Assembly: GCA_021790815.1 (NCBI GenBank)
Contig: JAJYFT010000003.1
Location: 20,409-84,408 of the forward strand
Direction: 5' to 3'
Length of the DNA stretch: 64,000 nucleotides
Origin: Actinomycetes bacterium
GTDB lineage: Bacteria > Actinomycetota > Acidimicrobiia > Acidimicrobiales > JABEUL01
Below the pieces are notes generated by a model. That model searched no databases. It was not told the DNA's origin and was given only the letters and a program-made list of their open reading frames with translations. Numbering within the stretch: the stretch's first letter is position 1; each line of letters begins with the position of its first letter. The position numbers were made by a program, and so were the translations under genes. This document shows, piece by piece, positions 36,032 to 42,452 of this stretch.

Positions 36032-36946
36032 TTAATCGGACTCCTTTCTGAAGTGTGGTGTCTCGTGATGCTCTCCACGTATTCTTCTTTCAATCTCTTC
36101 TTCTTCTGCTAAAAGCTTCTCAAGGGCATCACCATCTGGACCTGAATTTGAAAGCTCTTCTTTTTCAATGGGAACTTCTGACTCTCCGAAAACAGTCTGG
36201 TCTGGACGGCGCTTTCCTCCACCAGCAGTAATGATTCTTCGGGGCTTAAGTTGACCAGAAGTCTCTCCAACCGCCATTGCCGCTTCTTGGTGAATTTTAT
36301 CCTCGGAAGTAGTCTTGTAAGGAACAATATCGCCTTTATAAATCCAAACTTTAACCCCAATTCGGCCAAATGTGGTCCTAGCTTCCCTGAAACCGTAGTC
36401 AACATCTGCCCTAAGGGTATGAAGAGGGACACGACCTTCACGATACGATTCTTTTCTAGCCATTTCAGCTCCACCAAGTCGGCCTGAACATTGGACTTTA
36501 ACGCCCTGACCACCAGCCTTTTGAACCATTTGAATAGCTCTTTTCATTGCACGTCTGAAGCTAATTCTTCTTGAAAGCTGATCTGCAATACCTTGTGCAA
36601 TTAGTGCTGCATCAAGTTCAGGTTGTTTAATTTCCTGAATGTTAAGAGAAATTTTAGAGTTACCTGTTATGTGTTCAAGCCTCTTTCTAAGCCTCTCCGC
36701 CTCTTGACCTTTACGCCCAATTACAATACCTGGCCTTGCCGTATGTACATCAACTCTAAGTCTGTCTCTGGTTCTCTCGATTTCTACCCTACTTACCGCT
36801 GCGGCTTCTAGCTCTCGCATTAGGTAGTCTCGAATTTTCCAGTCTTCTATAACTAGTTTCTTGTAGTCTCGGTCCTCAAACCAACGTGATTTCCAATCAG
36901 TAGTTATACCTAGCCTAAATCCATATGGATTAACTTTCTGTCCCAT
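36032..36946 (-). CDS. rpsC: 30S ribosomal protein S3 with extended acidic C-terminus
   Basis: 304 residues versus about 220-275 in most bacteria. The KH domain has [20 protein letters not shown]; the C-terminal domain has [33 protein letters not shown]. Residues after about 215 form a low-complexity, mostly charged tail ([32 protein letters not shown]). S3 lines the mRNA entry. Confidence 0.96.
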
Positions 36947-36950
36947 TTAA

Positions 36951-37871
36951 CTAACCCTCGCTTCCATCAGAGTCTTGAACTTCGCTGTCTTCAGCACCTG
37001 AATCTGATTCCAAAACTGATTCATCCTCCAAATCGATTGCGAGTTTTTCTGCAGCTTCAGATCTCACGGGAGTTTCCTGATGTCTACCTAAGTCAGAATC
37101 TTCTAATTCGAGTTCATCCTCTAAATCGATTGCGAGTTTTTCTGCAGCTTCAGATCTCACGGGAGTTTCCTGATGTCTACCTAAGTCAGAATCTTCTAAT
37201 TCGAGTTCATCCTCTAAATCGATTGCGAGTTTTTCTGCAGCTTCAGATCTCACGGGAGTTTCCTGATGTCTACCTAAGTCAGAATCTTCTAATTCGAGTT
37301 CATCCTCTAAATCGATTGCGAGTTTCTCTGCAGCTTCAGATCTTTGACCTTCAGCGCCTAAGCTCTCTTCAAGCTCAACTATCTCGTTTGTATCAGCACT
37401 AAGTTCTTGTACATCATCACTATTTTCCGACTTTGCTTTAGAACTTGCTCGAGCAGCTTCCACTCGTTTCTGCCTTCGAATCGCGGTTTCAGCAGCTCTT
37501 CTAGATCTAACTTTTTCAAGTTCTTCTGGCGTTAATCGTGAGACTTCAATAGTAATATGACAATTTCTTTTCCTGATTCTTGAAGCCCTTCCTCGCGCTC
37601 TTGGCTTAAACCGTTTCATCGTAGCGCCTTCATCAGCAAAACAAGTAGAAACGTAAAGCTCAGTAGCGTCAAGACCTTCAGATTGAGCGGCGTTTGCTAT
37701 TGCAGAGGCTAAAACCTTAGCAATTGGAATTGCTGGTCCCCTAGATGTTTTTAGCAGCATAGAAATAGCATCGTGAGCATTTTCCCCACGAATTATATCC
37801 AAGACTTCACGCGCCTTATATGCTGAGAAACGAGCAAACTTAAGTCGAGCTGATGCAACTTCATTAGCCAC
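36951..37871 (-). CDS. rplV: 50S ribosomal protein L22 with repeat-built acidic tail
   Basis: 306 residues; usual bacterial length is about 110-130. The L22 core is 1-113 (SARLKFARFSAYKAREVLDIIRG to NCHITIEVS). A basic helix (about 114-150) and an acidic linker follow. Residues 177-269 are three copies of a 31-residue unit (RSEAAEKLAIDLEDELELED...), then a partial fourth copy and an acidic end (SDSGAEDSEVQDSDGSEG). L22 lines the exit tunnel and its outer face is at the exit rim beside L29. The reading frame is continuous and rpsC follows normally. Confidence 0.95.
   Translation of the reverse strand: MANEVASARLKFARFSAYKAREVLDIIRGENAHDAISMLLKTSRGPAIPIAKVLASAIANAAQSEGLDATELYVSTCFADEGATMKRFKPRARGRASRIRKRNCHITIEVSRLTPEELEKVRSRRAAETAIRRQKRVEAARASSKAKSENSDDVQELSADTNEIVELEESLGAEGQRSEAAEKLAIDLEDELELEDSDLGRHQETPVRSEAAEKLAIDLEDELELEDSDLGRHQETPVRSEAAEKLAIDLEDELELEDSDLGRHQETPVRSEAAEKLAIDLEDESVLESDSGAEDSEVQDSDGSEG
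37020..37343 (-). repeat. 93-bp tandem repeat inside rplV
   Basis: Three full 93-bp units (37251-37343, 37158-37250, 37065-37157) and a 45-bp partial unit (37020-37064). The second and third copies are identical by eye; the first differs by one base (gagtttctc for gagtttttc) and the partial unit differs at two bases near its end. Multiple of three, so the frame is kept. The near-identity suggests recent expansion by slippage or recombination. Confidence 0.97.
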
Positions 37872-37873
37872 CT

Positions 37874-38152
37874 TTATCGCCTCCCTTGCCTTTCTTGACC
37901 GGCATGAAATCTAAAGGTTCGTGTCGGCGCAAACTCCCCAAGTTTGTGACCAACCATTGATTCCGAAACGAAGACAGGCACATGCTTTCTGCCATCGTGC
38001 ACAGCAATTGTGTGACCAACCATGTCAGGTATTATCGTCGATCGTCGTGACCATGTCTTAATAACCCTCTTCTCATTTGCCTGATTCATGATTTCTACTT
38101 TTTTCAATAAGTGGTCATCCACAAAAGGACCTTTTTTTAAACTTCTCGGCAT
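37874..38152 (-). CDS. rpsS: 30S ribosomal protein S19
   Basis: 92 residues with [46 protein letters not shown] and [14 protein letters not shown]. It stands between rplB and rplV. Confidence 0.98.
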
Positions 38153-41233: not shown

Positions 41234-41264
41234 ACTTAACCTACTTAATAATCTACCTGATAAT

Positions 41265-42452
41265 CTACTTGATTATCTTAGTTACTCGACCAGCACCAAC
41301 GGTTCGGCCTCCTTCACGGATGGCAAACCTCAGCCCTTCATCCATGGCAATCGGCTTTCCGAGTTCAACAGTAATAGTTGTATTGTCACCTGGCATAACC
41401 ATCTCAGTTCCAGATTGAAGCTCAATTGATCCAGTCACATCCGTGGTTCTAAAGTAGAACTGCGGCCTATAACCATTGAAAAATGGCTTGTGACGTCCAC
41501 CTTCTTCTTTTGTGAGGACATACATACTAGCTTCAAAGTTTGTGTGAGGTGTGATTGAACCTGGCTTGCATAGTACTTGACCACGCTCAACTTCTTCTTT
41601 TTTGGTTCCCCTTAAAAGAGCACCGATATTGTCACCTGCTTCAGCCTCATCTAAGAGTTTCCTGAACATTTCCACACCGGTGCAGACAGTCTTTTGGGTA
41701 TTTCTAAGACCTACAATTTCAACTTCGTCTCCGGGATGAAGAGTACCTTGTTCAATTCTCCCAGTGACTACAGTTCCTCGACCAGTTATAGTCATAACAT
41801 CTTCAACTGACATTAAGAAAGGCTTGTCCTTGTCTCGACTCGGCTGAGGAATGTACTCGTCAACGGCGTCCATCAGTTTCATTATTTGCTCTGTCCACTG
41901 TGCGTCGCCTTCAAGCGCCTTAAGTGCACTTACCCTTATGACAGGTGTGTCATCGCCTGGAAATTCGTACTCATTTAATAGCTCTCTTACTTCGAGTTCT
42001 ACTAAGTCAAGTAGCTCTTCGTCGTCAACTACATCAGCTTTATTTAGCGCAACAACAATTGATGGAACACCTACCTGGCGAGCCAGAAGTACGTGCTCAC
42101 GAGTCTGCAGCATCGGTCCATCTGCAGCTGAAACTACTAAAATCGCTCCGTCTACCTGTGCAGCACCTGTAATCATGTTCTTGATGTAGTCAGCGTGCCC
42201 AGGCATGTCAACGTGAGCATAGTGACGTTTCTCAGTCTCATACTCAACGTGAGCAATTGATATAGTTATACCTCTTGCCTTCTCTTCGGGCGCCTTGTCG
42301 ATTTGATCAAAAGGCGTGAAAGATACATTCGGATTCTTCTCCGCAAGTACTTTCGTTATTGCCGCGGTCAGAGTAGTCTTCCCGTGGTCAATGTGTCCCA
42401 TTGTTCCTACATTTAAATGCGGTTTATTCCGCTCAAACTTTTGCTTGGCCAT
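41265..42452 (-). CDS. tuf: Elongation factor Tu
   Basis: 395 residues. GTPase motifs are [19 protein letters not shown] and [10 protein letters not shown]; the aa-tRNA binding and barrel domains are complete to [11 protein letters not shown]. It carries aminoacyl-tRNA to the ribosome. Only one copy is in the window. A 170-base leader with two hairpins separates it from fusA. Confidence 0.98.

Follow-up and report, generated by a model that had tools for sequence, protein, structure and literature searches.

A recently multiplied motif in the long acidic tail of ribosomal protein L22 from a member of the Acidimicrobiales

Layout of the rplV locus and anatomy of the L22 tail

The minus-strand open reading frame at positions 36951–37871 of the window, the 64,000-nucleotide stretch of DNA analyzed here, spans 306 codons and is flanked by rpsS (37874–38152) and rpsC (36032–36946), in the usual rpsS-rplV-rpsC order. 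The predicted protein matches PF00237 (Ribosomal_L22) across residues 8–110 with 112 bits (cut-off 28) and TIGR01044 (rplV_bact) with 119.9 bits (cut-off 73.65), and it is encoded by the single L22 gene of this genome. These family matches identify the rplV product as a genuine L22; its C-terminal extension is shared across the lineage (see below). The first-pass annotation had described a protein of 306 residues with a long acidic tail; the codon count agrees, and the tail extends for 193 residues past the core with a net charge of -40. We delineated the following features of the gene:

36951–37871, minus strand: rplV, ribosomal protein L22 (uL22), 306 aa, GTG start (open reading frame call and L22 family models)
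37542–37850, minus strand: L22 core domain, residues 8–110 (Pfam PF00237 match; AlphaFold2 pLDDT mostly above 90)
37422–37529, minus strand: predicted C-terminal helix past the core, residues 115–150 (AlphaFold2 pLDDT)
37449–37478, minus strand: basic motif RRQKRVEAAR, residues 132–141, within that helix (47-sequence alignment)
36954–37427, minus strand: acidic, predicted disordered tail, residues 149–306 (composition and pLDDT)

In the AlphaFold2 model, obtained with a 47-sequence alignment as input, the core is followed by one helix (residues 115–150), predicted with pLDDT of approximately 94–96 at residues 111–140 and 87 at residues 141–150. From residue 151 on, repeats included, the model contains no secondary structure, and pLDDT falls to about 50. 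The extra predicted helix right after the core is a feature shared with the L22s that carry a helical extension. Conservation beyond the core in the alignment of 47 L22s peaks at R136 (47/47), R133 (46/47), V137 (41/47) and R141 (35/47), and the conserved arginines sit within the predicted helix. The acidic region that follows (residues 149–306) contains 57 D/E and only 11 K/R residues. Overall, the tail consists of a 36-residue predicted helix with the basic motif, a disordered, low-complexity acidic linker, and a short motif that is repeated along the chain.

L22 is not the only protein encoded in the window to carry a tail. S3 (rpsC, 36032–36946) is also extended at its C terminus, and the extension closes with a strongly conserved peptide of about 28 residues that recurs throughout nearly the entire order and in several further orders of the class; in the class families f59, f61, f64, f67, f70 and f72, the S3 tails contain repeated RLIEAGGGKR-like units. 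L29 (rpmC, 35203–35607) has a 72-residue, mostly acidic tail past its core, and acidic L29 tails of 64–138 residues likewise occur in each of the four further family members whose L29 we read (G001, G002, G004, G005), although most of the order lacks such a tail (at least 40 residues in 7 of 36 L29s). Separately, the 3' end of tuf is crossed by a 12-bp tandem repeat at 41237–41278 (3.5 copies, 83%).

L22 tails across the Acidimicrobiales and beyond

We collected L22 from 66 genomes of the Acidimicrobiales and extended the sampling to the class and the phylum. In all 66 L22s of the order, the chain continues past the core for 56 residues or more (range 56–203, median 121.5), and in all 66, the stretch after tail residue 45 is net negative. 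All the L22s examined in the order share one layout: core, a region with the basic motif, and an acidic tail. Related genomes with an ordinary L22, which the first-pass annotation had named as an outcome that would overturn its reading, were not found among these 66. Judging from this sample, the long acidic tail of L22 is ordinary for the Acidimicrobiales and not peculiar to the genome of the window. A scan of genome contigs turned up three L22s, all of them distant, and nothing closely related, and within the literature searched, we found no account of acidic L22 tails in the Acidimicrobiales.

Outside the order, tails of at least 40 residues were detected in 15 of the 50 L22s sampled in other orders of the class and in 13 of the 57 sampled in the rest of the phylum, fractions that are rough given that these samples lean on best-scoring matches and one genome per family. 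The charge of these tails is not consistently negative.

The survey also revealed a variety of other tail contents. Runs of alternating His and Asp (HDHDHD) occur in 7 of the 66 tails of the order (G049, G057, G058, G075, G090, G134, G163) and in 4 of the 15 tailed L22s from other orders of the class (G060, G083, G102, G153), with L018, L022, L012 and L178 as examples among all such tails; possibly, these are metal-binding stretches on the ribosome. Within the order, a sunset domain (NF051437; cut-off 27) is present in some L22 tails, with matches in L051 (6588–7376, 73.5 bits) and L054 (6389–7261, 81.7 bits); it was recognized by eye also in L027, L046 and L052. A helix-hairpin-helix domain (HHH_5) matches at 27.4 bits (cut-off 27) in the tail of L062 (6268–6978) and is probably present in L019 too, and a short EEAGIxDQQ-like stretch is common to tails of three families (G012, locus L050; G018, L011, twice; G046, L059).

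Extensions of L22 near the tunnel exit have been seen in mycobacteria (PMC3286452), and in Mycoplasma, the extension was observed as a helix near the tunnel exit (PMC9534751); the tail described here is a variant of this already known kind. Like the L22 of the window, mycobacterial L22 (153 aa in M. smegmatis, 197 aa in M. tuberculosis) consists of the core and extra C-terminal sequence, and extra density at the mycobacterial tunnel exit has been ascribed to L4, L17, L22 and L29 (PMC3286452). The basic stretch past the core partly aligns between the two, but the extensions match weakly by sequence, the mycobacterial proteins are much shorter, and the M. smegmatis extension, as aligned, is not acidic but basic and rich in alanine, and contains no array of acidic repeats. 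A Foldseek search with the model of the window L22 matched L22s of solved ribosomes. Among these, L22 of Mycoplasma pneumoniae (159 aa; PDB 7ood, 8p7x) resembles the window protein in having a helix-forming extension past the core (PMC9534751); 141 columns aligned, but the extension superposes poorly (rmsd 14), and at 159 residues in total, the protein is too short to accommodate an acidic tail with repeats like that of the window L22.

Among the NCBIfam models, NF008917 (L22/unknown domain fusion) likewise describes an L22 with a long C-terminal addition, but the window L22 scores 77.5 bits against a cut-off of 526 and was rejected as a member. Models NF051448–NF051451 describe sunset variants of L17, L4, L20 and S2, in which a module has been added at the C terminus of a ribosomal protein; no such variant of L22 came up in NCBIfam, and the sunset domain itself gave no match in the window L22.

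A 93-bp tandem array and the motif it repeats

Within the acidic tail, Tandem Repeats Finder (TRF) detects an array at 37020–37343 with a period of 93 bp, 3.5 copies, 99% matches and a score of 634. The array comprises, as the first-pass annotation had claimed, three full copies of a 31-residue unit and a partial one. All are in frame and 99% identical at the DNA level, and they start at residues 177, 208, 239 and 270 (identified by TRF and copy comparison):

37251–37343, minus strand: repeat copy 1, residues 177–207, RSEAAEKLAIDLEDELELEDSDLGRHQETPV
37158–37250, minus strand: repeat copy 2, residues 208–238
37065–37157, minus strand: repeat copy 3, residues 239–269, identical in DNA to copy 2
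37020–37064, minus strand: partial copy 4, 15 residues (270–284), RSEAAEKLAIDLEDE, followed by a unique acidic end

Copy 1 differs from copies 2 and 3 by a single synonymous base change, and the partial copy 4 also carries a single synonymous change before the sequence diverges. With full copies that differ at no more than one base, the proposal that the repeat has grown recently holds up. The array is not a product of chance, because in a control in which the codons of 96 L22 tails were shuffled over 20 rounds, the top score was 130, compared to 634 in the window.

These tails often contain tandem repeats. In the order, 43 of the 66 tails but only 3 of the 66 cores contain TRF arrays scoring at least 40, and the repeat units vary between genomes. 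Among all 96 tails, 60 reach this score, compared to a mean of 18.65 after shuffling, an approximately threefold excess, and 22 score at least 100, compared to a mean of 0.1. The array in the window tops the 96 tails, the runner-up scoring 327. Such repeat growth had been called rare; for the class of event, this is not supported, given the frequency of arrays and the published L22 extensions (PMC3286452, PMC9534751), but an array this large, with copies so nearly identical, is uncommon. Tandem duplication is thus a habit of these tails, with the window providing the clearest and most recent-looking case.

Each copy contains a 13-residue motif, R[SN]EA[AS]EK[LI]AIDLE, which occurs four times in the window L22 and nowhere else in that genome. 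Searching 30 genomes, we found this motif only in the genome of the window and in G001 and G003, two species of a neighboring genus, in each case only in L22; the tails of the latter two contain two copies each. The motif is missing from the third genus of the family (G002, G004, G005), whose tails are acidic, and from all other sampled members of the order, which means that no function shared by the whole order can depend on it. The second half of the 31-residue unit (DELELEDSDLGRHQETPV) was not seen in G001 or G003. A tree of the L22 and S3 cores unites all six genomes from the family (86/94) and does not resolve which genus is nearest to that of the window.

Between G001 and G003, the motif copies are identical at 32 of 33 residues (pN 0.013, pS 0.34), compared to 38 of 53 in the remaining acidic tail (pN 0.141, pS 0.35); the difference in nonsynonymous change is significant (Fisher p = 0.001) for this one species pair with two copies. 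Between the window and G001, 11–12 of the 13 motif residues are retained, against 70 of 105 (67%) in the core. The constraint in the neighboring genus implies that the motif pre-dates the array, and that the array multiplied it. We therefore read the array as a motif apparently under selection that in-frame tandem duplication has recently multiplied, giving four copies in the lineage of the window.

An alternative reading, which we take seriously while considering it somewhat less probable than not, is that bulk charge and length alone matter: the tail would be a polyanionic brush that holds basic nascent chains, or other ribosomes, away from the tunnel rim or else binds cations; the repeat would be a neutral by-product of slippage in a sequence that tolerates it. 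This reading accounts well for the order-wide pattern, in which acidity is kept and sequence is not, and arrays of unrelated units far exceed the number expected, and it may hold for most genomes. However, it leaves unexplained a motif that is more constrained than the rest of the tail in the neighboring genus and, across genera, better conserved than the L22 core itself.

The array could also be an artifact of draft assembly, with the real copy number being one, two or many. The draft genome comprises 179 contigs, and copies 2 and 3, being identical, are uncountable by short reads; moreover, the distance between the two outermost differences in the array, about 300 bp, exceeds a typical short read, so that the exact repeat number is less certain. 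However, the reading frame is kept, the outer copies bear different single-base changes, two motif copies are independently present in G001 and G003, and the tail itself is order-wide, all of which makes an artifact quite improbable. Variation of copy number between strains is plausible.

We considered, too, whether the repeat unit is related to the conserved tail peptide of S3. Copying from the adjacent rpsC tail was rejected, as the DNA alignment score of 13 lies below the codon-shuffled mean of 18.7. Mimicry of the 28-residue S3 peptide, by which the repeat would compete for or share a partner of S3, draws on a local protein alignment score of 52 (shuffled mean about 30, reached in 0.2–0.5% of shuffles) and on the elements (A/L)EKL(A/L) and H(H/Q)ETP present in both sequences, but it is highly improbable given that there is no DNA similarity, that the L22 tails of G001 and G003 show no such resemblance to their own S3 tails, that acidic helices resemble each other by composition, that the comparison was chosen after the fact, and that S3 and L22 belong to different subunits. 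At most, the resemblance is a lead.

A candidate docking arm near the tunnel exit

As the best explanation of these observations, we propose an extension with a basic-helix anchor, an acidic arm and a multiplied docking motif, a proposal that, taken as a whole, we consider equally likely to be right or wrong. Under this proposal, the basic helix would anchor the extension by lying on the ribosomal surface close to the tunnel exit, the acidic tail would act as a flexible arm, and a partner working at the exit would dock on the repeated motif, which perhaps folds into a short helix upon binding; additional copies of the motif would then increase avidity or reach. The parts of this proposal differ in strength. 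We are highly confident in the anatomy of the tail and its evolutionary history. The anchor and arm rest on conservation and structure prediction, and the placement of the helix on rRNA or the ribosome surface is presumed. Docking by the repeated motif, which we infer from its constraint, is put forward tentatively, as a function that the motif may well turn out not to have. It appears unlikely, in our estimate, that the whole of a stronger version holds, namely, that the array is an expanding selected docking motif whose copy number tunes factor recruitment at the tunnel exit and differs between strains.

Published work provides context for this proposal. The first-pass annotation had suggested that the tail could bind nascent chains, chaperones, SRP or a membrane; a like idea has been published for mycobacteria, where the extra domains of L17, L22 and L29 were proposed to coordinate chaperones, SRP or the translocon at the exit (PMC3286452). 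Against the docking proposal stand the restricted occurrence of the motif, the lack of predicted structure in the repeats, and a finding from E. coli, in which a disordered nascent chain touched L23 and L29, not L22, and charge mattered little (PMC8556260). More broadly, ribosomal protein extensions are common in bacteria, those of L22 and L29 in M. pneumoniae among them, and their functions are largely unknown (PMC9534751).

What stands out at this locus is not the tail itself, but the fresh copying and the conserved motif in each copy. The whole order maintains an acidic L22 tail of variable sequence beside an almost invariant basic motif, and in the lineage of the window, this tail perhaps serves as a multivalent arm for docking close to the tunnel exit, with partner and function inferred. 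The constrained, recently multiplied motif offers a concrete bait peptide, and the family provides a natural copy-number series, with two copies in one genus, four in the genome of the window and none in the third genus, for asking what the tail recruits.
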